A model generated the notes under the pieces. It was not told the DNA's origin. It worked only from the letters and a program-made list of their open reading frames with translations, and searched no databases. Source: Deltaproteobacteria bacterium (GTDB lineage Bacteria; JAUYMQ01). Taken from it: 15,853 nucleotides of DNA. Shown piece after piece: positions 2 through 15,853 of this stretch. Location of the stretch: NCBI GenBank assembly GCA_030698575.1, contig JAUYMQ010000114.1:1-15853 (forward strand). The letters are read 5' to 3'. Positions within the stretch are counted from its first letter, which is position 1. Every line of letters starts with the position of its first letter. Position numbers and translations under genes: made by a program.

Positions 2-1222
2 GGCCCCGACGGAATCTGCGAAGCGGCGGCGGGCGCCGACGAGACGCAGGTGATTCCGGTCGGACAGGGAACCCCCGACTCGATTTGCGTGTCGGCCGGC
101 GCCGACGCCACCCTCGACACCGCCGCGCCATCCGGCGACGACGTCGTCGATGTGCCCAACAACCGGATCACCTCCGGCCCCGACGGTGTCTGCGACACCA
201 CGGCGGACATGAACGACGTGCAAAGCCTCCCCGTGGGGCAGGGGACGCCGAACAGCGTCTGCATCACCGCCGACAACCCCCTCGTCCGCAATCGCAACGT
301 GCGGATCCAGAACCTCGGCATCCGCTCTCCATCGGGTTTTGATGGAATCCATGTCGATCGCAGCGATTTCGTCGAGATCAACGCCATCATCATCGACGGA
401 ACGCTCGGGCCGCCGGGCCTGCCGGCCACGGGGCGGCACGGGGTCTTCGTGGATGCGCGATCCGTGAAGCCGGTGGTCAAGGCGTCGACGGCGCGCTTCC
501 TGAGCGGGTCCGGATTCCTGAACCAGGGCCCGGGCGCGGAGGTGAGCACCTCCCTGGCCGAGTTCAACTTCGGCTTCGGCTTCCTGCAGCAGCTCACCTC
601 GGGGGGGGCGGCGAGCAACGCGCTCTACAATGGCAACACCGCTCTGGCGAACACTTCGGGAGGCTTCGGTACCGGGGGGATCACCAACATATTTCAACGC
701 TGCTTGGCGTTCCAGAACACCGGGCCGGGATTCGTGCTGGGAGGTGTTGGGCACATCCTGTTCCAGGTCAATTCGTCGGGAAACTCGATCGGGGTTGAGG
801 GACGAGGCGTGGGGCTCCGGATCCGGAGTAGCCAGATCTCCAGCAATCTGGATGCCGGAATCCTCTTGCTGATGCAGGGGGACGATACCGCCGTGGGGAG
901 CGAGGTGTACGGCAACACTATCTTCGGCAACCGCAACGTCGGCGTCCGGATCAACGTGCCCGGCGTCGTGATGCGACGCAATCAGATCGGTCCGCGCAAG
1001 CTCAGCCTGCCCGTGCCGCAGGACGTGGGCGTCCTCCTCCAGTCGGGGGCCGAGGGCACCCTTCTGGAGCTGAACAAGCTGCAGAACAACTTCGACACCG
1101 ACGGCAACGTCTGCCCGCCCGCGGGTACCGCCTGCGATCTCGTGAATGGGGGCATGAACAACGCGGGAAGGCTGAACACCTTCAATGACGGCTACGTGCC
1201 GCCGCCGGGATTCGTCGACTGA
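2..1222 (+). CDS. Secreted-type right-handed beta-helix repeat protein, 5' end outside window
   Basis: The frame is open from base 2, so the gene starts upstream; the GTG at 50 lies inside a repeat and is not a credible start. At least 406 residues are present. The N-terminal part has a Cys-containing repeat: GPDGICE at base 2 and GPDGVCD at base 176, each followed by a PVGQGTPxSxC segment, a period of 58 residues (174 bp). The rest, from about base 290, is rich in short Gly/Asn turns such as NSSGNS, ISSNLDAG, YGNTIFGNRNVGV and MRRNQIG, the pattern of right-handed parallel beta-helix (NosD/pectate-lyase-like) coils. No catalytic residues can be assigned. Such proteins are usually secreted or surface-attached and bind or cleave polysaccharide; that role is inference. 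The end has two Cys (CPPAGTAC) and no obvious sorting signal. It is convergent with the gene ending at 1265. Confidence 0.8.
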   Translation, partial: GPDGICEAAAGADETQVIPVGQGTPDSICVSAGADATLDTAAPSGDDVVDVPNNRITSGPDGVCDTTADMNDVQSLPVGQGTPNSVCITADNPLVRNRNVRIQNLGIRSPSGFDGIHVDRSDFVEINAIIIDGTLGPPGLPATGRHGVFVDARSVKPVVKASTARFLSGSGFLNQGPGAEVSTSLAEFNFGFGFLQQLTSGGAASNALYNGNTALANTSGGFGTGGITNIFQRCLAFQNTGPGFVLGGVGHILFQVNSSGNSIGVEGRGVGLRIRSSQISSNLDAGILLLMQGDDTAVGSEVYGNTIFGNRNVGVRINVPGVVMRRNQIGPRKLSLPVPQDVGVLLQSGAEGTLLELNKLQNNFDTDGNVCPPAGTACDLVNGGMNNAGRLNTFNDGYVPPPGFVD

Positions 1223-2350: not shown

Positions 2351-3487
2351 TCAGAAACGATGCGAGAAACCGGGCGGCGGCTTCTCGCCGCTCGCCCCGT
2401 TTCCCGCGACGTCTCGCAGGCGGTCGAGCGCCCAGCGCGCGTGCCGGCTCACCACCGCGTCGGGATCTTCAGCAAGGCGGGCCAGGGCGCGCTCGAAGCG
2501 CCGTTCGCCGGAGTTTCCCATAGCGATCGCGATATTGCGAAGCCAGCCTGCGCGCTCCGCCCGGCGCATGGCGGTTCCCTGTATGAAGCCTTCGTAGTCA
2601 GACTGAATGCGCTCGAGCAGCGCCCCCAGTTCCGGCGCCTCGGCGCCCGGCCGGGGCTCGAAATCCTCGATGCCGCCTGCGGGCGCGTCGCTGTTCCAGG
2701 GGCAGACGTCCTGGCAAATGTCGCAACCGTAGACGTGCGTTCCCATCCCGGCCCGAAGCGCGGGGTCGATTTCGCCGTGATGTTCGATGGTCAGATAGGC
2801 GATGCAACGCCGCGCGTCGAGCTGGTAGGGCGCCACGATGGCACCGGTCGGGCAGGCATCGATGCAGCGCCGGCAGGTCCCGCAGTGATCCGGTTCCCGC
2901 CGATCGGGAACCAGCGGGGCATCGGTGACAATCTCGCCGAGAAAGAGGAAGCTTCCGGCCCTCCGATCGATGACGCAGGTGTTCTTGCCGATCCAGCCGA
3001 CGCCCGCGTGCGCCGCGGCGACGTGCTCCAGCACGGGGCCCGTATCGACCCGCGTGGCGCATAGCGTGCCCGGGCGCAGCCGCTGAAGCGCGCGGGCGAG
3101 CCTCCTGACCCGCTTCTCCATGACGCGGTGGTAGTCGCGTCCCCAGGCGTAGCGCGAAATCCAGCCGCGTGACCGTTCACGCGGCGCGGTCGAAAGAGGG
3201 CGGGCGGTCTGGTAAGACATGGCCACGCAGAGAACGGATCGTGCCCCGGGCAGGAGCCGCCGTACGTCCATCCTTGTCTCCCGGCTGCGGCCCATCCAGT
3301 CCATCGTGCCGGCCTGTCCTCGCGCAAGCCAGTCGAGTAGCGATGCTGACTCGGGCCAGACCTCCGCGCGCGCGATGCCTGCGCGGGTGAAGCCGAGGGC
3401 GCGCGCTTTTTCCTTGATGAGCGCGGTGAGCGCGGCGTCCTCCCGCGCAGACGCCTTGCCGGGGTTCGATGCGTGTGTCGCCTCCAT
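2351..3487 (-). CDS. queG: Epoxyqueuosine reductase QueG
   Basis: 378 residues, the normal QueG length. QueG reduces epoxyqueuosine to queuosine at tRNA position 34, using cobalamin and two [4Fe-4S] clusters, in the cytoplasm. Visible features are the VDTGPVLEH segment with the conserved Asp (D148), the first cluster CGTCRRCIDACP (C202, C205, C208, C212), a further Cys at 228 (RRCIAYLTIEHHG), and the second cluster CDICQDVCPWN (C255, C258, C262). The C-terminal tail RAGWLRNIAIAMGNSG resembles the HEAT-like end found in many QueG proteins. The ATG at 3487 is preceded by an in-frame TAA at 3499-3497, so no longer start is possible. There is no good Shine-Dalgarno; a TAACGT hexamer sits 6 bases before the ATG. 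It is first in a two-gene operon with the AhpD-like gene. No other queuosine gene is in the window. Confidence 0.96.
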   Translation of the reverse strand: MEATHASNPGKASAREDAALTALIKEKARALGFTRAGIARAEVWPESASLLDWLARGQAGTMDWMGRSRETRMDVRRLLPGARSVLCVAMSYQTARPLSTAPRERSRGWISRYAWGRDYHRVMEKRVRRLARALQRLRPGTLCATRVDTGPVLEHVAAAHAGVGWIGKNTCVIDRRAGSFLFLGEIVTDAPLVPDRREPDHCGTCRRCIDACPTGAIVAPYQLDARRCIAYLTIEHHGEIDPALRAGMGTHVYGCDICQDVCPWNSDAPAGGIEDFEPRPGAEAPELGALLERIQSDYEGFIQGTAMRRAERAGWLRNIAIAMGNSGERRFERALARLAEDPDAVVSRHARWALDRLRDVAGNGASGEKPPPGFSHRF

Positions 3488-3491
3488 GCCA

Positions 3492-3499
3492 CCACGTTA
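3492..3499 (-). promoter_or_regulatory. Possible -10-like motif TAACGTGG ahead of queG
   Basis: On the minus strand this reads TAACGTGG, followed by four bases and then the queG ATG. The same 8-mer at the same distance precedes the divergent oxidoreductase gene at 3669. No -35 resembling TTGACA is visible 16 to 19 bases upstream here, so promoter function is uncertain. A weak GAGG lies about 12 bases from the ATG as an alternative ribosome site. Confidence 0.35.
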
Positions 3500-3597: not shown

Positions 3598-3624
3598 TGG
3601 TGCAATGACATGCGAGGAGTAGTG
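3581..3624. repeat. 22-bp tandem duplication (two copies, one mismatch)
   Basis: Copies at 3581-3602 and 3603-3624 (CAATGACATGCGAGGAGTRGTG) differ at one position. Each carries the right arm TGCGAGGAG of the neighbouring hairpin, so the single left arm at 3574-3582 could pair with either copy. It sits directly upstream of the promoter for the isoprenoid cassette. Confidence 0.85.
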
Positions 3625-3632
3625 CAGCCTAC

Positions 3633-3662
3633 TTGACAGTTTTCACGCGCTTCTCCTAACGT
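3633..3662 (+). promoter_or_regulatory. Sigma70-like promoter for the isoprenoid cassette, predicted leaderless
   Basis: TTGACA at 3633-3638 is a perfect -35; after an 18-base spacer comes TAACGT at 3657-3662 as the -10. The ATG at 3669 is six bases after the -10, where transcription would be expected to begin. No Shine-Dalgarno lies in reach. Inference: the mRNA starts at or within a base or two of the ATG. Confidence 0.6.
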
Positions 3663-3668
3663 GGATTG

Positions 3669-5294
3669 ATGTCCCCGAGCAGCGAGTCCTCCAGCGCCGG
3701 TCCCGCCGGCCTCCTCCCGGAAGCGGCCGACGTGGTCGTCGTCGGGGCCGGTGTCGCCGGGCTCTTCGCGGCCCATTTCCTGGCCCGCGCGGGGCTGCGG
3801 CCGCTCGTTCTCGAGCAGAGCTACCACGCCGGCGGCTGTCTGAACGGCTTCACCCGCAAGGGATTCACATTCGACGCCGGCGACCAGTCTTTCGAGGAAC
3901 TGGGCATCGTCTTCCCCCTGCTCGCCGATCTCGATCTCCTCGACCGCTTCCAGTTTCGCCGATCGAACTACCGACTCGTCGCGCCCGGGATGGACGCGGT
4001 GATCGATTCCATCGACACGCTGGAGCGGGCCTTTCTCGGCGCCTTTCCGCGGGACCCCACGGGCGTCCGGTCGCTCTTCCGGGCGCTCCGTGAGGCCGAA
4101 GCGCTCCTGATCCCGCTTCTTGGCGCGTCCGGGCCGCTCTACCGCAGCGGTGCGAGGCGCGGCGCTGCGCTGGCCCGGGCGGGGCTGCACGTAGCCCGCC
4201 ACGGCGGGCGCCTGCGCGAAATGATGAACACGGGCGCGCGCGAGCTGGCCTCCGCGCACATCGAGGATCGGGAGCTGCGGAGCTTCGTCTCGCGCATCGG
4301 CTACAAGAACATGTCCTGGGCTGTGCTCGCCGGTTTCCTTCATTGCTGGGTGCATGACTACTGGTATCCGCAGGGGGGGCTCCAGGCTTTCTGCGACGGC
4401 CTGGTCGACGCGCTCCGGGAGCGGGGCGGCGAGGTTTGCTTCAAGACGCCGGTTGCTCGCGTCCTCGTCGCCGACGGGCGTGTCGAGGGCGTGGAGACGG
4501 CGCGGGGCGAGCGCATCGCCACGAGGCGGGTTGTCGCCTGCGGCGACATGAAGCGCCTTTACGGTGATCTGCTTCCGCCCGAGGCGCTGCCTGCGGCCGC
4601 GCGGGAGGAGGTCGCCCGGGGGGATCTTTCCGAGGCGCTCACGAGCGTTTACCTGGGCGTCGACGCCTCACCGGAACAGCTCTCCCCCATCCTCAAGACG
4701 CAGCACGTCTTCTACTTTCCGGAGTTGCGCATTCACGACCCAGAGGAGACGGCCGACGCCGGCCTTCACCGGGGCGCGTGGCTCGAAGTGAGCTGCCCGA
4801 CGCTTGCCGATCCATCTCTCGCGCCGCCGGGCAAGAGCGTCATCGTCCTGCAGACCATGGCCCCGGCCGCCTGGCTCGGCCGCTGGGGGCGCGAGGGGCG
4901 GGCCACGAAGGAGGTTTACCGCGCGATGAAGGACCGGGTGGCTGAGGAGATGATCGCCACGGCCGAGGGGCTTGTCCCCGATCTTTCCGGAAAGATTCTT
5001 TTCCGTGACGTGGGCACGCCGCTTTCGGCCGAGCGCTTCACCTTCAACGCCGCCGGCGCCACCGGCGGCTGGACCTTCGACCCCAATCGCAGCCTTCTGC
5101 GCGATCGCTACACACTGATCACCACGCCGATCGAGGGGCTGCAGACCGCCGGCCACTACGCGCTCTGGCCCGGCGGGGTGCCCTCCGCGGCGCTGTCCGC
5201 CCGCATCGCCGCGCTGCTCGCGTCGCGCCCGGCCCTGGCTGCCGTGGCGCGCCTGGCTGAGCGCGGAGCGGCGCGCATCGCGAAGCGGCGATGA
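3669..5294 (+). CDS. CrtI/CrtISO-family FAD-dependent oxidoreductase (phytoene-desaturase-like)
   Basis: 541 residues. After about 20 N-terminal residues comes the dinucleotide-binding fold VVVVGAGVAGL (GxGxxG at 26-31), with the ribose-binding acidic residue at E49, then HAGGCLNGFTRKGFTFDAG, typical of the CrtI/CrtISO/COG1233 family. The middle YPQGGLQAFCDGLVDAL and the C-terminal TAGHYALWPGGVPSAALS match the family's second FAD-contact region. Known members desaturate or isomerise carotenoids or saturate retinol; the exact reaction here cannot be read from the sequence. The ATG at 3669 was chosen over the TTG at 3666 because of the promoter spacing. Its TGA overlaps the ATG of the next gene (ATGA), so it is translationally coupled to the synthase, which supports an isoprenoid role. 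No transmembrane segment is obvious. Confidence 0.88.
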   Translation: MSPSSESSSAGPAGLLPEAADVVVVGAGVAGLFAAHFLARAGLRPLVLEQSYHAGGCLNGFTRKGFTFDAGDQSFEELGIVFPLLADLDLLDRFQFRRSNYRLVAPGMDAVIDSIDTLERAFLGAFPRDPTGVRSLFRALREAEALLIPLLGASGPLYRSGARRGAALARAGLHVARHGGRLREMMNTGARELASAHIEDRELRSFVSRIGYKNMSWAVLAGFLHCWVHDYWYPQGGLQAFCDGLVDALRERGGEVCFKTPVARVLVADGRVEGVETARGERIATRRVVACGDMKRLYGDLLPPEALPAAAREEVARGDLSEALTSVYLGVDASPEQLSPILKTQHVFYFPELRIHDPEETADAGLHRGAWLEVSCPTLADPSLAPPGKSVIVLQTMAPAAWLGRWGREGRATKEVYRAMKDRVAEEMIATAEGLVPDLSGKILFRDVGTPLSAERFTFNAAGATGGWTFDPNRSLLRDRYTLITTPIEGLQTAGHYALWPGGVPSAALSARIAALLASRPALAAVARLAERGAARIAKRR

Positions 5295-6220
5295 AAACCA
5301 TCGAGAAAACCCTCGACCGGGAAGCGACGCTCCACGCCCGGGCCGTCACGCGATTCCACGGCAAAACCTTCTATTTCGCCTCGCTCTTCCTGCCCGGGGA
5401 GATCCGTCACGCCATCTGGGCGCTCTACGCCTACACCCGGCGCCTCGACGATCTGGTGGATGAGAGCCCCGTGCCCGAGGTTGCAAGCGTTCAGCTCCGG
5501 CGGATCGACCGCTCGCTTTCCGCTCGCCTGGCCCGTCCCGGATCGAACCTTACCTACCTGGCGCTCACGCGCGCTGTCTCGCGCTTCGGCGTGCCTCACT
5601 TCTACTTCCACTCGCTTGCGGCGGGCCTCCGGATGGATCTCGAGCATGCGCCCTACGAGCGGTGGCGGGATCTCTATCGCTACTGCTGGCGCGTGGCGAG
5701 CGTCGTGGGCTTGATGGTCGCGCGAACCTTCGGGCGTTCCGATCCGGCCACCTTCCGGCGCGTAGTGGATTGCGGGATTGCGATGCAGCTCACGAACATC
5801 CTGCGTGACGTGGGCGAGGATCTCGAACGCGGCCGGATCTATCTGCCGAGGGAGGACATGGCGCGTTTCGGCGTCACGCCGGACATGCTCGCGAAACGGG
5901 AAGTGACCGAGCCGGTGAGAAAGCTCCTTGCCTTCGAGATCGCGCGAGCCAGGCGATACTACGAATCGGGGGCAGTGGTGCTCGGGCACGTGCGGGGGCG
6001 GGTGCGCGTGACCGCCACGCTCGCCCTCAGGCTCTACGCCCGGATTCTCGACAAGATCGAGGAGAACGGTTACGATGTTTTCACCCGCCGGGCTAGCGTC
6101 TCTCTTTCGGGAAAGCTGCTCGCCGCGCCACGCGTGCTCCTAGTTGCGTGGCTTCCGGCGGGCGGATCACAACCGGCCGTGCCACCCGTCAACATCGATT
6201 CCGGGCAGACCCATGAGTGA
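5291..6220 (+). CDS. Squalene/phytoene synthase family protein
   Basis: 309 residues, normal for the family. It condenses two prenyl diphosphates head to head (two GGPP to phytoene, or two FPP to presqualene diphosphate, squalene or diapophytoene). The first Asp-rich motif is RRLDDLVDE (D53, D57) and the second is QLTNILRDVGEDLERGRIYLP (D173, D177), both needed for Mg-diphosphate binding. The next residues, REDMARFGV, are also standard. It starts in an ATGA overlap with the FAD oxidoreductase and overlaps the phosphatase gene by 8 bases, so three genes form one unit. Only one synthase is present, unlike the HpnC/HpnD pair of hopanoid clusters, which favours a carotenoid-type product, but substrate length cannot be decided from sequence. 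The C-terminal 30 residues (about 280-309) look unstructured. Confidence 0.93.
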   Translation: MKTIEKTLDREATLHARAVTRFHGKTFYFASLFLPGEIRHAIWALYAYTRRLDDLVDESPVPEVASVQLRRIDRSLSARLARPGSNLTYLALTRAVSRFGVPHFYFHSLAAGLRMDLEHAPYERWRDLYRYCWRVASVVGLMVARTFGRSDPATFRRVVDCGIAMQLTNILRDVGEDLERGRIYLPREDMARFGVTPDMLAKREVTEPVRKLLAFEIARARRYYESGAVVLGHVRGRVRVTATLALRLYARILDKIEENGYDVFTRRASVSLSGKLLAAPRVLLVAWLPAGGSQPAVPPVNIDSGQTHE

Positions 6221-6875
6221 TCGAGTTCCATCCGTTACGGGTGATCTCCCCAAGTTCGCCCTTCGCATCGTGCCCCGTAGCGAGATCACCCGGGTTCATC
6301 TCGTCAGGCACGGCGTGGTGAGCGACGAGTGGCGCGACCGGGTCTACGGACAACTCGACGCGCCCCTGTCGGAGAAGGGCCTGGCGCAGGCAGAGGCGCT
6401 CTCGGCGCGGATGGCGTCAACGCCCCTAGACTTCATCTACGCGAGCGATCTCTGCCGCGCCCTCGACACGGCGCGCGCGATCGCCCGGCCGCATGCGCTC
6501 GAGGTCAGCGCCGTGCCGGCCTTCCGCGAAGCTTCCTATGGCCACTGGCAGGGGCGGCGCTGGATGGACATTCTTTCCGAGGACGCCGACGAGGTTCGCG
6601 CCATCTATGCCGACTTCGGCGGCGCCAGGATGAAGGATGGCGAAAGCCTTGCGGAACTCGGCCAGCGCGTGATGCCCGCTTTCCGGGAGATCGTGGAACG
6701 ACATCGCGGGGAAAGTGTAGCTATTGCGAGCCATGGCGGGGTCATCCGCGTGATCCTGGCGGATGCGCTCCGGATGGAGCTGGCGGCAACCGCGCGCATC
6801 GAGCAGTTCAACTGCTCTCTGAACGTGCTCGATTACGGGCCCGAGGGTGTGCGCGTCCGGCTGGTGAATGGATAG
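6213..6875 (+). CDS. Histidine phosphatase family protein (phosphoglycerate-mutase fold)
   Basis: 220 residues. Catalytic residues are visible: LVRHG (R32, H33, G34, phosphohistidine), the acid/base Glu in FREASYGHWQG (E106), and the second His in IASHGGVIRV (H174). The YGQLDAPLSEKG and YASDLCRALDTA segments are typical of CobC/GpmB-like phosphatases. The ATG at 6213 (CATGAGTGA) overlaps the synthase stop by 8 bases and fixes the start, because the protein then begins close to the conserved core. The substrate is unknown; placement suggests a prenyl phosphate or a sugar phosphate of the same pathway, but these enzymes are promiscuous and this is inference. It converges on the next minus-strand gene with a 24-base gap and no clear terminator hairpin. 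Confidence 0.9.
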   Translation: MSDRVPSVTGDLPKFALRIVPRSEITRVHLVRHGVVSDEWRDRVYGQLDAPLSEKGLAQAEALSARMASTPLDFIYASDLCRALDTARAIARPHALEVSAVPAFREASYGHWQGRRWMDILSEDADEVRAIYADFGGARMKDGESLAELGQRVMPAFREIVERHRGESVAIASHGGVIRVILADALRMELAATARIEQFNCSLNVLDYGPEGVRVRLVNG

Positions 6876-6899
6876 GAAAACAACAGCACGGGATGATTA

Positions 6900-7586
6900 T
6901 CAGAGGGGCGATAGAACGGGAGGACCCAGATCGTCGACGCCCAGGGCGGCGCGCATGGCTTGCTCGAGGAGAATGAGCCGGTCATTGCCGAAGTACATGT
7001 CCTCGCCGAGGAAGAACGTGGGCGATCCGAAAACGCCGAGGTCCATCGCCTCCTGCGTGAGGGCGCGAAGCTTCTCCTTGGTCTCGGCGCAGCCGGTCCA
7101 TTCGCTGAAGGCCGCCCCATCGAGCCCCGTCTCTTCGGCGATCCCCCGCAGCACCCCGTCATCGGCGATGTCCCTGTCCTCGGCCCAGTAAGCGCGAAAA
7201 ACGCGGTGCGAGTAAGGCGATACGACTCCCTGATCGATGGCCATGAGCGCTCCTCTCAGCGCCTTCACGGAGTTCACCGGAAAGATCGACGGGAAGCGAA
7301 AAGGCACGCCGTAGTAACGCGCCCAGTCCGTCATGTCCTTTGCCCCGTAGCGGGCCTTGGCCGGCGTGGCCCTTGCCTCGTAGACGCTCTGGTTGATCGC
7401 GTTGAAGATCCCGCCTACGAGGATCGGCTTCCAGAGAATCCCGTAACCGTTCCGCTCGGAGAGGCTCTCGATTCGCGTGGAGGCGAGATAGGTGTAGGGG
7501 CTCGAATAGTCGTAGTACCAGGTGATCCGGTGGGCCTCCCGATCGCTGCCGCGGGCCGGTTTCGGGCGTGCATCTTCAGCGGGCAT
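6900..7586 (-). CDS. DsbA-fold 2-hydroxychromene-2-carboxylate isomerase-like protein
   Basis: 228 residues from the ATG at 7586, which follows GAGGAGG with a 4-base gap. The active-site segment DYSSPYTYLAS has Ser (S28, S29) where thioredoxins have Cys, the hallmark of the glutathione-dependent HCCA isomerase/kappa-GST branch; the cis-Pro loop FGSPTF (P189) and YFGNDRL follow as in that family. Known members isomerise 2-hydroxychromene-2-carboxylate in naphthalene breakdown, but many relatives act on unknown aromatic or conjugated substrates. There are no neighbouring naphthalene genes, so the substrate is not established. A weak promoter is possible at 7649-7678 (minus strand TCGACG, 18 bases, TATGCT), giving a leader of about 55 to 60 bases. 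Confidence 0.85.
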   Translation of the reverse strand: MPAEDARPKPARGSDREAHRITWYYDYSSPYTYLASTRIESLSERNGYGILWKPILVGGIFNAINQSVYEARATPAKARYGAKDMTDWARYYGVPFRFPSIFPVNSVKALRGALMAIDQGVVSPYSHRVFRAYWAEDRDIADDGVLRGIAEETGLDGAAFSEWTGCAETKEKLRALTQEAMDLGVFGSPTFFLGEDMYFGNDRLILLEQAMRAALGVDDLGPPVLSPL

Positions 7587-7614
7587 GGGGCCTCCTCGGG
7601 GGCCGGTTCGGGAC

Positions 7615-7637
7615 GCCGGACGGCTCGCCTGTCCGGC
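7615..7637 (-). other. Inverted repeat in the leader of the HCCA-isomerase-like gene
   Basis: GCCGGAC (7615-7621) and GTCCGGC (7631-7637) form a perfect 7-bp stem with a 9-base loop. It lies between the weak candidate promoter and the Shine-Dalgarno of the minus-strand gene, so it could be an operator or leader hairpin, or just high-GC coincidence. No T-run follows on either strand. Confidence 0.35.
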
Positions 7638-7688
7638 CGCGCCCATCGAGCATAACCGAGGCGGCGGTGCGGCGTCGAGGGGGGTTCC

Positions 7689-7718
7689 TTGACACCTCGA
7701 AAAACGCTCCGATACAGT
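7689..7718 (+). promoter_or_regulatory. Sigma70-like promoter, predicted leaderless
   Basis: TTGACA at 7689-7694, an 18-base spacer, and TACAGT at 7713-7718 (GATACA at 7711-7716 is an alternative -10). The ATG at 7726 starts 7 bases after the -10, and the intervening bases are C-rich with no Shine-Dalgarno. The arrangement matches that at 3633-3669. Confidence 0.6.
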
Positions 7719-7725
7719 CACCCCC

Positions 7726-8385
7726 ATGAAGACGCCGACCGCCAGGCGCAAGCCATCTGCCATGCGCAAGCCATCTGCCATGCGCAAGTCGTTTGCGCAG
7801 CACGAGCCGTATGAAGGAGGCGCGACGCCCCGGGAATCGGGCACGGAAATCCTGTCCGACGGCGTCCTCCTCATTCTCAAGTTCGTTGAGTCCCACCTGA
7901 GCGGGACCGAGCTCGGGCTTCTGAAGGAGCTGAAGCCCGGCGAGTACATTCCGCTCGAGACGCTCCAGCCGTTTTGGGAATTGCTCACAAAAAGGAGTCC
8001 GGACGAGGTGCGGGTGGCGATCAAGGGGATGGTCTATCGCAACAAGCGGATCCTGGCGGAAACAGGCGCAAGATCCCCCGCGGATGCGCTGCGGTTCTCG
8101 AACGTTCTCTACCAGACATTCAATCGCGGTCCCCGCCTCGGCGGCCGGGAAGTCGTGGCCGAGGGGGATAACAAAATCATCGTCGACGATTCGACCTGGC
8201 CCGGGTGCGGCACCTCCGAGTGGTTCATCGAGGCCTATGTCCGCGCCTTCGGGGCCCGGGCGGTCCGGATCGAACATCTCAAGCCCTGCCGGCTCCGGGG
8301 TGAGCGGCAGTGCCGGTACCGGGTCCGCTGGGCAGGCGTCAGGCAGGCCCGGGATCAAGAAGGCCCGGCATCACCCAGACCCTGA
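7726..8385 (+). CDS. Unknown protein, V4R/DUF2378-like C-terminal half
   Basis: 219 residues; no function can be assigned. The N-terminus is basic with an RKPSAM repeat (residues 8-19) encoded by an 18-bp DNA tandem repeat. The middle (about 38-120) is helical, with ESHLSGTELGLLKELKPGEY, and the last part (about 150-202) has STWPGCGTSEWFIEAYVRAFG followed by CRLRGERQCRYRVRW. This C-x7-C-ending pattern recalls V4R (4-vinyl reductase) and the myxobacterial DUF2378 group, which are ligand-sensing or small-molecule-binding domains; this match is by eye only. The ATG at 7726 is favoured by the promoter; ATGs at 7762 and 7780, inside the repeat, are possible alternative starts. It probably opens a transcription unit with fabL, 25 bases downstream, but has no clear metabolic link to it. 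Confidence 0.6.
   Translation: MKTPTARRKPSAMRKPSAMRKSFAQHEPYEGGATPRESGTEILSDGVLLILKFVESHLSGTELGLLKELKPGEYIPLETLQPFWELLTKRSPDEVRVAIKGMVYRNKRILAETGARSPADALRFSNVLYQTFNRGPRLGGREVVAEGDNKIIVDDSTWPGCGTSEWFIEAYVRAFGARAVRIEHLKPCRLRGERQCRYRVRWAGVRQARDQEGPASPRP
7747..7788 (+). repeat. 18-bp in-frame tandem repeat (2.3 copies)
   Basis: CGCAAGCCATCTGCCATG occurs at 7747-7764 and 7765-7782, identical, then a partial CGCAAG at 7783-7788. It encodes RKPSAM twice, each unit ending in an in-frame ATG. Perfect identity suggests recent slippage. Confidence 0.95.
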
Positions 8386-8410
8386 TGAATCGCGACCCCG
8401 TGGAGGACCG

Positions 8411-9169
8411 ATGACGAATTCCCTGCCGCTCGAGGAGAAGGTGGCCCTCATCACCGGTTCATCCCGGGGAATCGGCCGCGCCATGGCCCTCAAGTTCGCA
8501 AGCTGGGGGGCGCACGTGGTGATCAACTATCAGCAGGACGAGCGCTCGGCGCAGGAGGTGGCCGACCAGGTCACGGCGATGGGGCGGAGGGCAATCCTTT
8601 GCAAGGCGAGCGTTCGCGAGGTGAAGGCGCTCGAGCGGCTTTTTGACGAGGTGAAGGCCCAGTTCGGCGCCCTCGACATCTTCGTGTCAAACGCCGCGAC
8701 GGGAGCGCTTCAACCGGCGGTCGAGCTGTCGAAGGAGGCCTGGAAGCTCACGCTCGAGACGAACGCCCGGGCCTTTTTCCTGGGAGCAAAGCTTGCGCAG
8801 CCGCTCATGACGCGCGGTGGCACAATCGTGGCCCTCTCGAGCCTCGGCTCGCACCGATACATCCCGGGCTACACCGTGGTTGGCGCCTCGAAAGCCGCGC
8901 TCGAGAGCCTGGTGCGGAGTTTTGCCGTGGAGTTCGCCCCTTTCGGCATCCGCGTGAACTGCGTTTCGGGCGGGCTTGTGGATACGGACGCATTGAGCCA
9001 CTTCCCCGCAGCCGAGCAGATGATCAAGACGGTCAAGGAGCGCACTCCGCTCGGCAGAATCGGGCATCCCGAGGATCTCGCCGACGTGGTGAGCCTGCTC
9101 TGCACAGACGAGGCGCGCTGGGTGACCGGCCAGGTTCTCATTGCGGATGGAGGCTACTCGCTCCTGTAG
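8411..9169 (+). CDS. fabL: FabL-type enoyl-ACP reductase (SDR family)
   Basis: 252 residues. The cofactor fold TGSSRGIG (15-22) and the NAA motif (94-96) are those of SDR enzymes. The active site is YTVVGASK, Tyr154 and Lys161 separated by six residues, the Y-x6-K spacing of enoyl-ACP reductases rather than the usual Y-x3-K of classical SDRs. Flanking segments VSGGLVDTDALSHFP and ADGGYSLL match the Bacillus FabL pattern as remembered. Expected role: reduction of trans-2-enoyl-ACP with NADPH in the last step of fatty acid elongation. The ATG at 8411 follows GGAGG by 4 bases. The region just downstream carries a terminator-like hairpin. Confidence is high for SDR and good for the FabL subgroup. 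Confidence 0.85.
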   Translation: MTNSLPLEEKVALITGSSRGIGRAMALKFASWGAHVVINYQQDERSAQEVADQVTAMGRRAILCKASVREVKALERLFDEVKAQFGALDIFVSNAATGALQPAVELSKEAWKLTLETNARAFFLGAKLAQPLMTRGGTIVALSSLGSHRYIPGYTVVGASKAALESLVRSFAVEFAPFGIRVNCVSGGLVDTDALSHFPAAEQMIKTVKERTPLGRIGHPEDLADVVSLLCTDEARWVTGQVLIADGGYSLL

Positions 9170-9187
9170 GCGCGACTGAAATCACCG

Positions 9188-9213
9188 GGCGGGCGCGGCC
9201 CGCCATTTTGTTT
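9188..9213 (+). terminator. Terminator-like hairpin abutting the DUF4438 ribosome site
   Basis: GGCGGGC (9188-9194), a three-base loop, and GCCCGCC (9198-9204) form a perfect 7-bp GC stem followed by ATTTTGTTT (9205-9213). This has the form of an intrinsic terminator after fabL, but the T-run is broken by one G, and the DUF4438 ATG is only 10 bases further on. It may therefore be an attenuator or leader element. Confidence 0.6.
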
Positions 9214-9222
9214 GGGGGAGTC

Positions 9223-10140
9223 ATGCTTCGGACCAATGTCGACAAGCTTGTGATGATGGCAGTCCAGGGGCGGGTCGCCGCATCCATGCGGTTCGAGCCC
9301 TTCGAGGTGGACGCCGAGGGGCGCGGGCACTCGCTTCCCAGCGTTGGCGGCATCACCTACAACGTCAAGGTAGGGGATCCGGCCTTCGGCTGGGCCGGGG
9401 ACCACATCGAGCCGGCGGTCTCCGCCCTGATCGACGAAGAGAAGCGCTCCAGCCGCCTCAATCAGGCGTTCAACTTCCTCGCGTGCGTGGGCAACGAGGC
9501 GCGGGTACTCGGCGGAGACGCCAAGGGCGCGCGAGGAATCGTAACGGGGCACCATGGGGGGGTGGAGCACGTGCTGATTGACTTCGACGATGCCGCGCTC
9601 GAGAAAATGGCTGTCGCCGACAAGATTCTCATCCGCGCCTGGGGGCAGGGCCTGACGCTCACGGACTTCCCCCAGGTGAAAATCTACAATCTCGATCCAG
9701 GCGTTCTGCAGAAGATGGGCATTTCGGTTAAAAAGGGAATTCTCGAGATCCCGGTGGTTGCCAAAGTTCCCGCCGCACTCATGGGATCGGGCATCGGGCA
9801 CCCTGATCCCGGGACCGGTGACTATGACATCACGACCCAGGACCCCGGAATGGTGAAGAAGTACGGCCTCGATAAACTCCGGCTCGGCGATATCGTTGCG
9901 ATCACGGACGCCGACAACACCTACGGCCGCCACTACTTTACCGGTGCGGTCACGATCGCCGCCGTCGTTCACTCCGACTCGCATCTGTCCGGGCACGGGC
10001 CGGGCGTGACGACGCTCATCTCGGCCCGCAAGGGGCTCCGCCCCGTCATCGACCGCAGCGCGAACCTGGCAAACCTGCTCGGGATCGGGCGGCACCGGGC
10101 TCGCGACCGCGGCGCTTCACGCCGGCGGCGCGCCTCCTGA
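9223..10140 (+). CDS. DUF4438 family protein
   Basis: 305 residues. It matches, from memory, the Thermotoga TM1086 type: MLRTNVDKL at the start, then GGITYNVKVGDPAFGWAGDHIEP, CVGNEARVLGGDAKGARGIVTGHHGG, ADKILIRAWGQG, AKVPAALMGSGIG and GHGPGV near the end. The many conserved Gly/His/Asp motifs suggest a ligand- or metal-binding site, but no reaction is known for the family. The ATG at 9223 is favoured over the upstream TTG at 9208 because family members begin MLRTN and a G-rich ribosome site lies immediately before it. The tail after about residue 288 (RHRARDRGASRRRRAS) is strongly basic and probably disordered. The next gene follows 18 bases downstream. Confidence 0.88.
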   Translation: MLRTNVDKLVMMAVQGRVAASMRFEPFEVDAEGRGHSLPSVGGITYNVKVGDPAFGWAGDHIEPAVSALIDEEKRSSRLNQAFNFLACVGNEARVLGGDAKGARGIVTGHHGGVEHVLIDFDDAALEKMAVADKILIRAWGQGLTLTDFPQVKIYNLDPGVLQKMGISVKKGILEIPVVAKVPAALMGSGIGHPDPGTGDYDITTQDPGMVKKYGLDKLRLGDIVAITDADNTYGRHYFTGAVTIAAVVHSDSHLSGHGPGVTTLISARKGLRPVIDRSANLANLLGIGRHRARDRGASRRRRAS

Positions 10141-10158
10141 CTGGAAGGCGGACCGGCC

Positions 10159-10761
10159 ATGCGAGTAGCCATTTTTGTCTTTCCCGAATTGACCGAGCTG
10201 GATGCGATCGGTGTCTTCGATCCGCTGGCGCGCGTTTCGGCCATGGGGATCGATGGCAACTGCACCGTCAAGCTGGTTGGCACCGAGGAAGTCGTGACGG
10301 GACATTTTGGCGCCTCGCTCCAGGTTGGCGCGGTCTTTCCCCGCCTCGACCGATTCGATCTTCTCGTTATTCCGGGGGGCTTCGGGACACGCGCACTCCA
10401 GAAGGAAATCAAGGTCATCGAGTATCTGCGATCCTGGGGCTCCGTGAAGCCGGTGGCCACCGTTTGCACGGGGGCCCTGCTGGCGGCTGCGGCTGGATTT
10501 CTGCGGGGAAAGCGGGCGACCACTCACCGGGCTGCATTCGAGGAACTGGCGGCCTATGGCGTGGAGGTGGCCGATGAGCGAATTGTGGAGGACGGTCGCG
10601 TGATCTCGGCCGGCGGGGTGACCTCCGCCCTCGACCTGGGCCTGTACCTGGTCGAGAAGCACTGGGGGGCCGACGCGAGGCGTCGCATCGCCGCCCAGAT
10701 GGAATACACGGACAACGGTCCAAGGCCCGCGCCGGCGCCTTCCCAGGATCCGGCGAACTGA
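10159..10761 (+). CDS. DJ-1/PfpI family protein, isonitrile-hydratase-like
   Basis: 200 residues. The fold shows DJ-1/PfpI hallmarks: MRVAIFVFPELTELDAIGVF at the start, LLVIPGGFGTRAL (68-80), the nucleophile elbow ATVCTGALLAAAAGFL with C103, then RATTHRAAFEEL and VISAGGVTSALDLGLYLVE. The TGALL/ATTH/AGGVTSALD combination is that of the isonitrile hydratase (InhA) and GATase1-like regulator group, but no AraC DNA-binding domain follows, so it is probably an enzyme or a redox-protective protein. Substrate unknown. The ATG is 18 bases after the previous stop with an AGGCGGA-like ribosome site. Confidence 0.85.
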   Translation: MRVAIFVFPELTELDAIGVFDPLARVSAMGIDGNCTVKLVGTEEVVTGHFGASLQVGAVFPRLDRFDLLVIPGGFGTRALQKEIKVIEYLRSWGSVKPVATVCTGALLAAAAGFLRGKRATTHRAAFEELAAYGVEVADERIVEDGRVISAGGVTSALDLGLYLVEKHWGADARRRIAAQMEYTDNGPRPAPAPSQDPAN

Positions 10762-10824
10762 TCGCGCCCTGCGGCCGACCCGGCAGGGGGCCGGCTGCGG
10801 GGTTCGGGATCAAAGGAGTGAGGC

Positions 10825-11625
10825 ATGAGCGAAGTAGCGAAAACGGCCTTCGAGGACCTCCTCTACGAGAAAAAGGGAGGCGTCGCGCGCATCACGATCA
10901 ACAGGCCGGAGCGGCGCAACGCGTTCCGGGCCAGAACGGTCGACGAGCTGATCGCCGCTTTTCAGAATGCCTGGGACGATCGCACCGTCGGCGTGGTGGT
11001 GCTGACCGGGGCAGGCGACCGGGCTTTCTGCTCGGGAGGTGACCAGAAGGAGCGTGAAGGGTCCGACTACGGGGGAATGCGGGGCGGCGCGGTGGAACTC
11101 CTCCATGCCATGATTCGCAATATCCCGAAGCCCGTGATCGCGGCGGTCAACGGATTCGCAATCGGCGGGGGGCACGTGCTGCAGGTCCTGTGCGATCTGA
11201 CGATCGCGAGCGAGACGGCGGTCCTCGGCCAGGTCGGCCCCCGGGTTGGGAGCGTGGATCCGGGTTATGGAACGGCCTATCTGTCGCGGATCGTGGGGGA
11301 GAAGAAGGCGCGGGAGATCTGGATGCTCTGCCGCCAGTACACGGCCCGGGAGGCTCTGGACATGGGGCTGGTGAACCGCGTCGTACCTCCCGGGGAACTC
11401 GACGCCGAGGTCGACACCTGGTGCCGCGAGCTGCTCGAGAAGAGCCCCACCGCCCTCGCGCTGGTCAAGTCTTCCATGAACGCGGATACCGAAGCCATCG
11501 CGGGCATCGGGAAGCTCGGCTTCCAGGCCCTGCATCTCTTCTACGGCACCGAGGAGGCGGCCGAGGGGAAGAACGCTTTCGTCGAGAAGCGGCCCGTAGA
11601 TTTTTCCAGGTTCCGTGGAAACTGA
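10825..11625 (+). CDS. Crotonase of the MenB/BadI type
   Basis: 266 residues. Crotonase motifs are CSGGDQ (69-74), the oxyanion GGGH (114-117), and GQVGPRVGSVDPGYG with catalytic Asp145, plus Y240 in FYGTEE. Residues shared with naphthoate synthase MenB: GHVL, LCRQYTAREALDMGLVNRVVP. Residues shared with 2-ketocyclohexanecarboxyl-CoA hydrolase BadI: FEDLLYE, GSVDPGYGTAYLSRIVGEKKAREIW (MenB has GSFDGG), and SPTALALVKSSMN. The Gly of the VGP segment fits the bicarbonate-type MenB. It probably performs an acyl-CoA ring closure or opening, either 1,4-dihydroxy-2-naphthoyl-CoA formation or alicyclic ring cleavage; no other men or bad genes are here, so the choice is open. The ATG follows AAGGAG by 6 to 7 bases. 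Confidence 0.85.
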   Translation: MSEVAKTAFEDLLYEKKGGVARITINRPERRNAFRARTVDELIAAFQNAWDDRTVGVVVLTGAGDRAFCSGGDQKEREGSDYGGMRGGAVELLHAMIRNIPKPVIAAVNGFAIGGGHVLQVLCDLTIASETAVLGQVGPRVGSVDPGYGTAYLSRIVGEKKAREIWMLCRQYTAREALDMGLVNRVVPPGELDAEVDTWCRELLEKSPTALALVKSSMNADTEAIAGIGKLGFQALHLFYGTEEAAEGKNAFVEKRPVDFSRFRGN

Positions 11626-11764
11626 CCTGGCTCGCCGGAAGCGGCCGTGAGATCGGGTTCCGCGTGGGGGGTGAATATGCCAGGACCCGCGCGCGTCGAG
11701 CCCCTGGCTGCGCTCACGGATGGGCGCGAGCTCGCCGAGGCGGCAACAGTTTCCGGCCCCCTTA

Positions 11765-11785
11765 TTGACCGGAATGCCGGGTCAA
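11765..11785. promoter_or_regulatory. Palindrome overlapping the -35 of the exported-protein gene
   Basis: TTGACC (11765-11770) and GGTCAA (11780-11785) are perfect inverted arms; extending inward gives TTGACCGG against CCGGGTCAA with one bulged base around AATG. It coincides with a -35-like TTGACC and could be an operator for a dimeric regulator. No regulator gene is adjacent. Confidence 0.45.
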
Positions 11786-11793
11786 GGTAAAAA
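11765..11793 (+). promoter_or_regulatory. Sigma70-like promoter for the exported-protein gene
   Basis: TTGACC at 11765-11770, a 17-base spacer, TAAAAA at 11788-11793. The predicted start near 11800 leaves a leader of about 70 bases, with AGGAGG at 11858-11863 before the GTG at 11873. The rest of the space back to 11626 shows no further gene. Confidence 0.45.
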
Positions 11794-11872
11794 TAGCAGG
11801 CCCTTAGCGGCCCGGGCGGCGCTCGATCTTCGGCAGACGATGCGGCCGGCTCCGGATAGGAGGATAGAACCG

Positions 11873-12421
11873 GTGAAGAAATCGACTCGGATTCCCATGG
11901 CAATCATCGTTAGCCTCATCCTGGCCGTCTCTGCGGTTGTGGTTGAGCCAGAGACGGCGGTGGCAGGGGACAAAGGGATCATTTTCGGACGGCTCAATGA
12001 CAAGGTGATGGGTGACAGCTGGAACGGCGAAGGCGAGCTCGTTGTCGTCGTGGGCGACGACGAGAAGAACCAGAAGAAGTTCAAGATGTGCAAGGACGGC
12101 TACGTCGCCGCCGAGGTCGATGCCGGCCTTGTCAAGCTGAGCACCATCGATAACAAGAAGGAAAAGGACAAGGAGAAGCGGGAGGCGTTCCTCAACCAGC
12201 CCATACTGAAGGTCGCTTCGGGGCAGGCGGTGTACTGGGGAGACGTTAAAATCGGCTTCGACTATGGTTCGCTCACCTTCCGTTCGGAAGACAAGCTGGA
12301 TGCGGCGAAGGCCGCCGTCGTGGCTTGTCTGACAGAAATGGGGGAGACGGAACTCGCAGGCAAGATGGGGGCCGCTGCGGCAGACAAGCAGTTTGTCTTC
12401 ATCGGGATGGCCGATCGCTGA
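11873..12421 (+). CDS. Small exported protein of unknown family
   Basis: 182 residues from the GTG at 11873, which is preceded by AGGAGG with a 9-base spacer and opens a clear signal peptide: MKKSTR, a hydrophobic core IPMAIIVSLILAVSAVVV, then AVA before GD, a likely signal peptidase I site after residue 31. Earlier in-frame starts would put about 50 charged residues ahead of the signal and are rejected. The mature part of about 151 residues has FGRLNDKVMGDSWNGEGELVVVV, a Lys-rich stretch DNKKEKDKEKREAF (about 93-106), two Cys (C73, C152) that could pair, and no lipobox. No family is recognised. Its own promoter, the overlapping palindrome and the strong terminator at its end suggest a free-standing, regulated gene acting in the periplasm or outside the cell. 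Confidence 0.8.
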   Translation: MKKSTRIPMAIIVSLILAVSAVVVEPETAVAGDKGIIFGRLNDKVMGDSWNGEGELVVVVGDDEKNQKKFKMCKDGYVAAEVDAGLVKLSTIDNKKEKDKEKREAFLNQPILKVASGQAVYWGDVKIGFDYGSLTFRSEDKLDAAKAAVVACLTEMGETELAGKMGAAAADKQFVFIGMADR

Positions 12422-12474
12422 CAGGACGTCACCGGCGTCGTGCGACGGAAACGAGCAACGGCGTTGAGAAACGA

Positions 12475-12505
12475 GGCCCCCGCCATGCGGCGGGGGCCTT
12501 TTTTT
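12475..12505 (+). terminator. Strong rho-independent terminator
   Basis: GGCCCCCGCC (12475-12484) pairs perfectly with GGCGGGGGCC (12489-12498) across a 4-base loop and is followed by seven T (12499-12505). It ends the exported-protein gene. It lies between two convergent genes and, read on the minus strand, the stem is followed by TCGTTTCTC, so it may also work weakly for the ATPase gene. Confidence 0.93.
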
Positions 12506-12506
12506 A

Positions 12507-14225
12507 TCAGGCGTCCTGCTGAACCGGGGGCGGCCGGCGCACCCGGAACTGGCGCAGGCGGTTGAGGGCGGCGGCGATGTCGATCGCGCGGGGGAGCGCG
12601 AGATCTCCCACGGGGAAGGGGGTCAGCACGTCGAGCCCCCGACGCTCGATCTCGCCGGCGGTGGCCTCGACGGCCTGCCTGATCGAATCCGAGCTGCGGA
12701 GATGTTTCACCGCCATCAAGTGAATCGCCCAACCAATGGCACGCGTCTGCGGCGCCTCTTCGAGCTGCTCCAGCGCCGACAGATCGACGACTTCCTTCCC
12801 GTACAGGAGCGTGTTCCGCCCACGGACATCGATGCGCACCTCCCGCCGTCCCTTCTCGGGGCGAAGGCTTCCGGGATCGGGGCAGCGGGGCGTGACGCCG
12901 CCGAAGCCCCGGTGGGCCCGCGGCTGGCGCCCGGTGGGGAGGACCCTGGCCACCTCGGCGGCGCGCGCCGTCACATCCTCGGCGCGGAAGCCGTCCATGA
13001 GAATCACGCGGTCGGCCAGATCCAGGTAGTCGCCGGAACCTCCCATCACCAGGATGCTGCTCACGCCCCGTCCCTCGAACAGCGGCCGCACCCTGTCCAC
13101 GAAGGGCGTGATGGGCTCGATCTCATCGGGAACGAGCGCCTGCATGCGCGCGTCACGCACCATGAAATTGGTCGCGCAGGTATCCTCGTCAAGAAGCAGC
13201 AGGCGCGAGCCCATCTCGATCGACTCGAGGATCGATGCCGCCTGGCTGGTCGATCCGCTGGCGTTCTGCGTCGAAAAATCGGCAGTGTCGTCGACGCCGG
13301 GCACCACGCCAAGAAAGGGGGAAAGGTCCACACCCGCGATGCTGCGGTTGCTCTCCGCCCGCACCTTCACGGCGTCGCGGAGCGTGACTACAAGCTCCCG
13401 CCCGTCGCCGGGAATGTGATCGCTCACGCCGCGGGCGATGGCGTTCAGCAGCGTAGTCTTCCCGTGGAACCCGCCTCCGACGATGAGCGTTACCCCGCGG
13501 GAGATCCCCATGCCGCGGACGGATCTCCCGCCCGGAAGCGGGATCTCGACCGCGAGCGAGGCGGGTGACTGAAAAGGGACGGCCCCGGCGACCAGCGGGC
13601 GGTCGTCCACGCCACTGCGGCGGGGGAGAATGGCGTTGTTCGCCACGAATGCGACGAGGCCCCGATCCTCGAGGGCGGCGCGCAGCGCCAGGCGGTCGTC
13701 GGCGGAGCGAATCCACGCCTCGAGTGCCTCGGGGGCGTGGGCCTTCGCCAGAAGAGAGGACTCCAGTGCCTCGGGAAGGCGATCGCAGAGCAGCGCCGTC
13801 GCCTCACGCCCCAGAATACGGCGCCCTTTCGCGGGGAGTCCCAGCGTAAGGCGCGCCTCCAGGGTGTCCTCTTCGAGCATAACGGCCGTGCGGGGGATGA
13901 TGGTCTGCGCTCCGGCGCTCATGGAGAAGGTGCCCCTGGCGCCCTCCTTCCCTCCCTTGCCCACCCCCAGAGCTTCGGCAAGCCGGCGGGCGAGGAGGTC
14001 GGCCAGCGCTACCCGCCGGGCCGGTTTGTCGCGGAGCGCCGCCGGGAAGTCCGCTACCCGCCCCTGGATCTGGACCCGTAGCCTGGTGGGAGGGGCGAAG
14101 GGATCGGGCTGGACGTGCTCGATGAACAGTTTGAAAAACGCCCCGCGGTAGTGGCCCTGGATGTCCTCGTAGGCCTTGTAGCCACGGCCGTCTATCCGCT
14201 TGAGTGTCGCCCGCAGTCGATCCAC
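12507..14225 (-). CDS. ABC-class P-loop ATPase, COG3044/PF09818 type
   Basis: 572 residues. The start MDRLRATLKRIDGRGYKAYEDIQGHY and the layout match the 'predicted ATPase of the ABC class' family. Walker A is VGGGFHGKTTLL (250-260), a signature-like ASGSTSQAASILE (322-334) comes next, Walker B is LLLLDEDTCATNFM (D346, E347), and VMGGSGDYLDLADRVILMDG (393-412) is the switch region. There are no membrane segments, so it is not a transporter. The trypanosome member MRB1590 binds RNA as a ring-shaped dimer; bacterial members are uncharacterised, so an RNA- or nucleic-acid-linked role is inference. The start is a GTG at 14225 with an AAAGGGA ribosome site; the ATG at 14232 is out of frame. Transcription is divergent from the lyase gene. 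Confidence 0.88.
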   Translation of the reverse strand: MDRLRATLKRIDGRGYKAYEDIQGHYRGAFFKLFIEHVQPDPFAPPTRLRVQIQGRVADFPAALRDKPARRVALADLLARRLAEALGVGKGGKEGARGTFSMSAGAQTIIPRTAVMLEEDTLEARLTLGLPAKGRRILGREATALLCDRLPEALESSLLAKAHAPEALEAWIRSADDRLALRAALEDRGLVAFVANNAILPRRSGVDDRPLVAGAVPFQSPASLAVEIPLPGGRSVRGMGISRGVTLIVGGGFHGKTTLLNAIARGVSDHIPGDGRELVVTLRDAVKVRAESNRSIAGVDLSPFLGVVPGVDDTADFSTQNASGSTSQAASILESIEMGSRLLLLDEDTCATNFMVRDARMQALVPDEIEPITPFVDRVRPLFEGRGVSSILVMGGSGDYLDLADRVILMDGFRAEDVTARAAEVARVLPTGRQPRAHRGFGGVTPRCPDPGSLRPEKGRREVRIDVRGRNTLLYGKEVVDLSALEQLEEAPQTRAIGWAIHLMAVKHLRSSDSIRQAVEATAGEIERRGLDVLTPFPVGDLALPRAIDIAAALNRLRQFRVRRPPPVQQDA

Positions 14226-14282
14226 CGGCCATCCCTTTCTTCGCGCGTTCGTTCCAGGGCAGCAGGGGCGTGCCCGGCGCGA

Positions 14283-14311
14283 AACCTAGCCCTCCCGAGC
14301 CGGGGTGTCAA
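14283..14311 (-). promoter_or_regulatory. Sigma70-like promoter for the ABC-class ATPase gene
   Basis: On the minus strand: TTGACA at 14311-14306, a 17-base spacer, TAGGTT at 14288-14283. The predicted start near 14276 gives a leader of about 50 bases containing the AAAGGGA ribosome site, in contrast to the divergent lyase promoter. Confidence 0.5.
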
Positions 14312-14350
14312 AGCGCCAGGATCCCCGCCGGAACGGGCCGCGTTGCGTGA

Positions 14351-14378
14351 TTGAAAAGTAAGCCCGCGGGTGGATAAT
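14351..14378 (+). promoter_or_regulatory. Sigma70-like promoter for the aspartase/fumarase-type gene, predicted leaderless
   Basis: TTGAAA at 14351-14356, a 16-base spacer, GATAAT at 14373-14378. The ATG at 14385 follows after 6 bases, at the expected start of transcription. A GGTGGA about 10 bases before the ATG could instead act as a ribosome site if transcription began further upstream. Confidence 0.6.
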
Positions 14379-14384
14379 GGGGCC

Positions 14385-15853
14385 ATGGCACGCGCCACCC
14401 GATCCCATCCCCGCCCCCTCCGCCGAGAACGGGACAGCCTTGGCACCGTCATGGTACCCCGCGATGCGTACTATGGCGCGCAAACCGCGCGGGCCGTTTC
14501 GAACTTTCCGATCAGCGGCCTCAGGGCGCACACGGAGCTCATCCGGGCCTACGCCCGTGTGAAGCTGGCTGCTGCGGAGGTCAATCGCCAGCTGGGGCTG
14601 CTACCCGCCGGCATTGCCCGGAAGATCGGGCGCGCCGCCCGCGAAGTGATTGATGGACGGCACGACGATCAGTTCGTCGTCGACGTCTTCCAGGCGGGGG
14701 CGGGGACCTCCTTTCATATGAATGTGAACGAAGTCATCGCGAACCGTGCCGCCGAGTTGCTCAAGCTTCCCAGGGGGGATTACGCGCGAATTCACCCGAA
14801 CGATCACGTTAACCTCGGGCAGTCGACGAACGATACTTTCCCGACCGCCATGCGCATGGCTTCCCGGTCGCTGCTCGAAGCGTTGCTGGGCGAGATCGAC
14901 CTCCTGGCCCTTTCGCTGCGCCGCAAGGGTCGGGAGTTCGATCGCGTGCTCAAGTCCGGCCGTACGCATCTGCAGGATGCGGTGCCCGTGCGGCTCGGCC
15001 AGGAGTTCACCGCCTACGGTGAAGCGGTGGCGCGGGCCGGTCGCATGCTCCGTCGAGCGGCCGGGGAGCTCGAGGAACTGCCCATCGGGGGAACCGCCAC
15101 GGGCACGGGGCTCAACGCCGACCCACGGTACAGGGCACGGGTGGTGGCGGCTCTCTCGGCCCTCACCGGTTTCAGGTTCAGGTCCTGCGCCGATCTCCGG
15201 GAAGGAATGCAGAGCCAGCAGGCGATGGCTCATCTGAGCGGCGCCCTCCGGAATCTGGCGCTCGAGCTTGGGCGCATCGCAAACGATCTCCGCCTTCTTT
15301 CCTCGGGACCCTTTACCGGGCTCTCGGAGATTCGCCTGCCCCCGGTCCAGCCGGGTAGCTCGATCATGCCGGGCAAGGTGAATCCCGTGATGGCCGAGAT
15401 GCTCAACATGGTGTGCTTCCAGGTCATGGGCAACGATCTCACGATGGCGATGGCCGTTCAGGCCGGGCAGCTCGAACTGAACGTGATGATGCCGATCATG
15501 GCGCACAGCGCGCTCCAGTCGATGGAGATCCTCAAGAACGGCTGCCGGGAGTTCCGCCTGCGCTGCGTCGACGGCATCGAGGCGGATGCAGAGACGTGCC
15601 TCGAGTACGCAATGCGCAGCGCCGGGCTCGCCGCGGCGCTGAACCCGGCGATTGGCTATGCTGCGGCCGCGGAGGTGGCCAGGGAGGCAGCCGCAACAGG
15701 TCGCTCTATCGCGGAGGTGGTTCGAGTACGGGGGATCCTGAAAGAAGAAACCCTCTTGCAGGTCCTCGATCCGCTTGGCATGACCGAACCGGGAATCCCC
15801 GGCCGGCGGAAAATGGGAGCGAAGGGCGCCGCGAGAAGAAAGCGAAGGACCTA
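14385..15853 (+). CDS. aspA: Aspartate ammonia-lyase (aspartase/fumarase superfamily), runs to window edge
   Basis: 489 residues are visible from the ATG at 14385; the last two bases are TA, so a stop codon could complete one base beyond the window. It reversibly removes ammonia from aspartate to give fumarate, or hydrates fumarate if a fumarase. Superfamily motifs: AGAGTSFHMNVNEVIANRAAELL, HPNDHVNLGQSTND with S147-T148-N149, GRTHLQDAVP (T194, H195), and the signature GSSIMPGKVNP with catalytic S325 and K331. Features favouring aspartase over FumC are the Thr in STND (FumC usually SSND), QAGQLELNVMMPI (FumC usually GNFELNV), and a C-terminus close to that of Bacillus AnsB as remembered (ALNPAIGYAAAAEVAREA). 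The last residues are unusually basic (GRRKMGAKGAARRKRRT). No partner transporter is seen. Confidence 0.85.
   Translation, partial: MARATRSHPRPLRRERDSLGTVMVPRDAYYGAQTARAVSNFPISGLRAHTELIRAYARVKLAAAEVNRQLGLLPAGIARKIGRAAREVIDGRHDDQFVVDVFQAGAGTSFHMNVNEVIANRAAELLKLPRGDYARIHPNDHVNLGQSTNDTFPTAMRMASRSLLEALLGEIDLLALSLRRKGREFDRVLKSGRTHLQDAVPVRLGQEFTAYGEAVARAGRMLRRAAGELEELPIGGTATGTGLNADPRYRARVVAALSALTGFRFRSCADLREGMQSQQAMAHLSGALRNLALELGRIANDLRLLSSGPFTGLSEIRLPPVQPGSSIMPGKVNPVMAEMLNMVCFQVMGNDLTMAMAVQAGQLELNVMMPIMAHSALQSMEILKNGCREFRLRCVDGIEADAETCLEYAMRSAGLAAALNPAIGYAAAAEVAREAAATGRSIAEVVRVRGILKEETLLQVLDPLGMTEPGIPGRRKMGAKGAARRKRRT

Follow-up and report, generated by a model that had tools for sequence, protein, structure and literature searches.

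Putative leaderless genes with promoter-adjacent ATG start codons as a minor class in a deltaproteobacterial genome

Leaderless genes in bacteria and in the present genome

According to predictions summarised in PMC9581028, 21.6% of bacterial species make use of leaderless transcription, which accounts for up to 40% of transcripts. Zheng et al. 2011 (PMC3160421) detected, in 207 of 953 bacterial genomes, a TA-like -10 element some 10 bp ahead of the start, a feature taken to indicate leaderless genes. These TA-led genes have no Shine-Dalgarno (SD) sequence, the element takes the form TAnnnT in high-GC genomes, and the signal covers at least 20% of genes in Actinobacteria and Deinococcus-Thermus (PMC3160421). 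In Deinococcus-Thermus a TANNNT-type -10 element is common, its usual position being 6-7 bp ahead of the ORF (Zhong et al. 2025, PMC12340547). In mycobacteria, leaderless genes exist alongside leadered ones, with the start codon at the 5' end of the transcript and no SD (Shell et al. 2015, PMC4633059), and ATG or GTG at +1 is both necessary and sufficient (PMC4633059).

The arrangement described below is thus already known, and the genome studied here (an uncultured Deltaproteobacteria bacterium, assembly GCA_030698575.1) is a new occurrence of it. Promoter-adjacent start codons, backed by a distance peak and by control comparisons, are documented in the sole member of its phylum among the genomes compared, none of which is closer to it than the same domain. 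The genome resembles those with TA-led genes in having the -10 element near the start and no SD, but the share is only about 1.5-2% of the genes that head transcription units (TUs). With Deinococcus-Thermus it has in common a TANNNT-type -10 element at 6-7 bp; the Deinococcus signal is visible with TANNNT alone, whereas the excess in the present genome is seen only when a -35 element is also required, both estimates being noisy. Unlike the leaderless genes of mycobacteria, those considered here show enrichment for ATG only and not for GTG.

Three promoter-ATG layouts in one contig

The window analysed, 15,853 nt in length, is an entire contig (C8) of a 4.13-Mb assembly of 653 contigs, with 65% G+C in the sample used below. 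An initial annotation had described three forward-strand layouts in which a -35 and a -10 hexamer lead directly to an ATG, and direct reading of the letters confirmed them at all coordinates. At site 1 (3633..3662), the -35 hexamer TTGACA (3633-3638) is followed by an 18-nt spacer, the -10 hexamer TAACGT (3657-3662) and, after 6 nt, the ATG at 3669 of a gene for a CrtI/CrtISO-like FAD oxidoreductase (3669..5294, forward strand); the next gene on the same strand (5291-6220) belongs to the squalene/phytoene-synthase family. Site 2 (7689..7718) likewise has TTGACA (7689-7694) and an 18-nt spacer, here with TACAGT (7713-7718) 7 nt before the ATG at 7726 of a forward-strand gene (7726..8385) for a 219-aa protein that gave no match in Pfam, NCBIfam or PDB. 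At site 3 (14351..14378), TTGAAA (14351-14356), a 16-nt spacer and GATAAT (14373-14378) stand 6 nt before the ATG at 14385 of an aspartate ammonia-lyase-type gene (14385..15853, forward strand), which runs off the contig end and whose homologues in named genomes, about 60% identical, are too distant to test promoter conservation. Points against the promoter reading are the 18-nt spacer at two of the three sites and the -10 hexamer of site 1, which matches only three of the six consensus bases. Judging from gene order, each of the three genes heads a divergent gene pair and would be the first in its TU.

A strict scan of both strands of the window for TTGANA-16..18-[TG]ANNNT-6..7-ATG returned three matches, which are exactly sites 1-3, while the same layout occurred on average 0.01 times, and at most once, in 400 dinucleotide-shuffled versions. 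A stricter scan for promoters found four sites in the window (1.2 expected), sites 2 and 3 among them. The initial annotation had noted the lack of a usable SD at the first two genes; an SD core (GGAG, GAGG or AGGA) is in fact absent upstream of all three ATGs (3669, 7726 and 14385).

Each of the promoters contains an in-frame stop codon: TAA at 3657 is part of the -10 hexamer of site 1 itself, and TGA at 7690 and TGA at 14352 lie inside the -35 hexamers of sites 2 and 3, which rules out a translation start ahead of any of these promoters. The remaining alternative starts are TTG 3666, adjoining the ATG at site 1, the downstream ATG 7762 and ATG 7780 at site 2, neither of which is preceded by an SD core, and the upstream GTG 14370 at site 3, the sole one between the hexamers. 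The gene starts were taken from a home-made gene finder, and the start codons at the three sites are well constrained. In the opening codons of the gene at 7726, reading by eye revealed a tandem repeat of CGCAAGCCATCTGCCATG (7747-7782), which creates two further in-frame ATGs.

With -10-to-ATG distances of 6, 7 and 6 nt, promoters read by the housekeeping (sigma70-type) sigma factor would place the transcription start at the start codon or 1-2 bases ahead of it, and because of this the mRNAs of the three genes would lack a 5' untranslated region or have a minimal one. By analogy with established work on leaderless mRNAs, from which both the exact transcription start and SD-independent initiation are drawn, translation presumably begins at the AUG that forms the 5' end, with no SD pairing by the ribosome. 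In the rest of the genome, SD sites are used alike at TU heads and inside operons. We consider it likely, on sequence grounds, that sites 1-3 are leaderless or near-leaderless sigma70-type promoters, representing a small, ATG-specific minority class in a mostly SD-led genome.

Promoter-to-ATG distances across the genome

In the whole genome, the pattern TTGAC-17..19-TANNNT-0..30-ATG gave 68 matches, compared to 14 for the reversed pattern. At distances of 4-10 nt before the ATG there were 32 matches against 11.6 expected from the matches at 11-30 nt (p ~6e-7), and 27 remained at these distances (p ~7e-5) after removal of the two matches in the window and of a repeat family on C120. When GTG was used in place of ATG, the same whole-genome pattern showed no excess (12 vs. 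12.3 expected). The genome-wide scan of -10-to-start distances that had been proposed along with the three layouts thus yielded a peak that is real and specific to ATG. The ratio of matches at 4-10 nt to matches at 14-20 nt equals 3.2, which ranks third from the top among 59 genomes; for the 58 others the median is 1.19. Two of the other genomes, G029 (115:34) and G040 (114:54), also have strong ratios and may represent lineages with substantial leaderless initiation.

Three matches on C120, at a distance of 5-6 nt, were rejected as leaderless since the ATG opens a non-coding frame; reading of the DNA suggests that the genes start further downstream. On the reverse strand of L261 (7060-8320), each of three similar genes is preceded by a nearly identical TTGACTCGGCCGCCG(A/C)GCCGAGCGTANNNT promoter, with a largely palindromic spacer and a misleading ATG that lies 5-6 nt past the -10 hexamer and opens a non-coding frame.

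A gene-based test was made on a 955-kb sample comprising 120 stretches, in which a codon-usage gene finder called 742 genes. Of 48 strong promoters located before TU-head or contig-edge genes, 9 stand at 4-9 nt from a plausible start (6 of them outside the window), none at 10-23 nt and 39 beyond, while a reversed-consensus control produced three promoters in all over the 955 kb. Such a bimodal distribution is expected of a leaderless class together with a leadered class that has room for a ribosome site. When the window is left out, however, the peak at 6-8 nt in the sample is made up of only 8 genes (about 2 expected).

Independent cases with well-fixed starts include three genes. An IlvE-like aminotransferase gene has TATAAT 8 nt before the ATG, an in-frame stop at -9 and homology from residue 2; a Rieske protein gene has a distance of 6 nt, an in-frame stop at -24 and a Pfam match from residue 2; and a PaaX-like regulator gene shows the layout TTGACA-18-GATAAT-7-ATG, in which the TGA of the -35 hexamer closes the frame. 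An SD core is absent in all 15 of the 15 candidates at 6-8 nt, although this is only partly independent evidence because the -10 hexamer occupies part of the SD region.

One idea, speculative and quite improbable, is that this isolated lineage has retained a small set of leaderless genes that depends on complete -35/-10 promoters and on ATG, in contrast to Deinococcus with its TANNNT-led form and to mycobacteria, where either ATG or GTG serves, and that housekeeping genes such as the IlvE- and PlsX-like ones belong to this set. If so, selection favouring SD-independent expression of certain genes could lie behind it.

Share among transcription-unit heads and competing readings

The excess of genes with a promoter at 6 to 8 nt amounts to about 1.5-2% of 378 TU heads (1.6% with a stricter and 2.2% with a looser threshold, with errors of about 1%), and it is near zero at TU heads when TANNNT alone is searched and no -35 element is required. 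The same code applied to 250 kb of Deinococcus deserti plasmid P2 returned 13.8%, with an error of about 4%, and for 250 kb of Cupriavidus pHG1 a negative value. The share in the present genome lies below that of the Deinococcus and Actinobacteria type, where the leaderless signal is found in at least 20% of genes.

In this genome, 59% of the TU heads have an SD site, as do 60% of the internal genes, with upstream controls at 20-22%, so that SD sites are no scarcer at heads than inside operons; in a 50-kb stretch of D. radiodurans MP1, which holds few genes, they precede 18% of heads vs. 61% of internal genes. The pooled upstream nucleotide profile of the 119 TU-head genes lacking an SD contains no -10 signal. 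A search of the assembly for 16S rRNA, which would give the anti-SD tail and the placement of the organism, found none. A contrast between leaderless heads and SD-led internal genes is not a property of this genome, since SD sites are equally frequent at both, the excess is about 1.5-2% and the pooled profile lacks a -10 signal. For annotation of the genome, TU-head starts that lack an SD should be compared with -10 sites 6-8 nt upstream.

The window itself contains leadered TU heads. On the reverse strand, a promoter TTGACA-17-TAGGTT (14283..14311) lies 57 nt upstream of the GTG start of the TU-head gene 12507-14225, an ordinary leader, and the TU head at 7586, also on the reverse strand, has the SD GAGGAGG. 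Among the genes that had been cited as operon-internal with normal ribosome sites, those at 2338 (reverse strand) and 10825 have good SDs and the former is operon-internal, but the gene at 11873 is not clearly internal. It begins 247 nt past the preceding gene, and the forward-strand region 11765..11873 holds a promoter-like TTGACC-18-AAAAAT (11765-11794) and the SD AGGAGG before the GTG at 11873. This gene is likely a TU head that has both a leader and an SD, and for that reason counts against the generalisation rather than for it. An imperfect palindrome, TTGACCGGAATGCCGGGTCAA (11765-11785), overlaps its possible -35 hexamer and could be an operator.

The leaderless reading of the three sites made in the initial annotation is well supported by promoter position, the lack of SD, frame closure and the ATG-specific peak, as far as sequence can tell. 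Its extension to the lineage, according to which leaderless initiation is routine for TU-head genes, so that most heads would have a -10 element about 6-7 nt before the start, is very unlikely to hold, even though three clear cases occur among roughly seven TU heads of one window and the genome-wide peak is at the right distance. Against it stand the size of the excess among the 378 TU heads, the equal use of SD at heads and internal genes (59% vs. 60%, unlike the D. radiodurans stretch), the absence of a -10 signal from the pooled SD-less heads, the 39 of 48 strong promoters that are at least 24 nt upstream of their genes, and the leadered heads of the same window. Striking as the three examples are, they come from a single window and do not amount to a rule for the lineage.

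Another explanation is that the promoters are real while at least one start is misassigned, the true one being the downstream ATG at 7762 or 7780, which would give site 2 a short SD-less leader, or the upstream GTG at 14370, with transcription of the site 3 gene starting elsewhere. At sites 2 and 3 the opening codons do carry a weak coding signal, and alternative start codons are present, but none of these has an SD core or a promoter match of its own, site 1 offers no comparable alternative, and misassigned starts would not produce an ATG-specific genome-wide peak at 4-10 nt; we regard this explanation as unlikely. Chance resemblance of the three layouts might be suspected from the degeneracy of -10 hexamers and from the lack of enrichment of TANNNT alone at these distances, yet it is extremely improbable given three observed layouts against 0.01 expected in the window and 68 vs. 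14 matches genome-wide. Leaderless or near-leaderless promoters, confined to a minority of genes, are the reading retained here.

The region upstream of site 1 has features of its own. A dispersed repeat (GATTGCTTCGTCGCTGTCGCTCCTCGCAATGACATGCGAGGAG...) with 66 matches in the genome occupies 3552-3623, directly upstream of the site 1 promoter and between two divergent genes, and includes two direct copies of 22 nt at 3580-3623. The divergent QueG-like gene has TAACGT-6-ATG at its start (3487..3499, reverse strand), so that -10 hexamer and distance are those of site 1 but on the opposite strand, with no recognisable -35 element. It is a possible fourth case, and such -10-only cases were left uncounted because TANNNT without a -35 element shows no excess in this genome.
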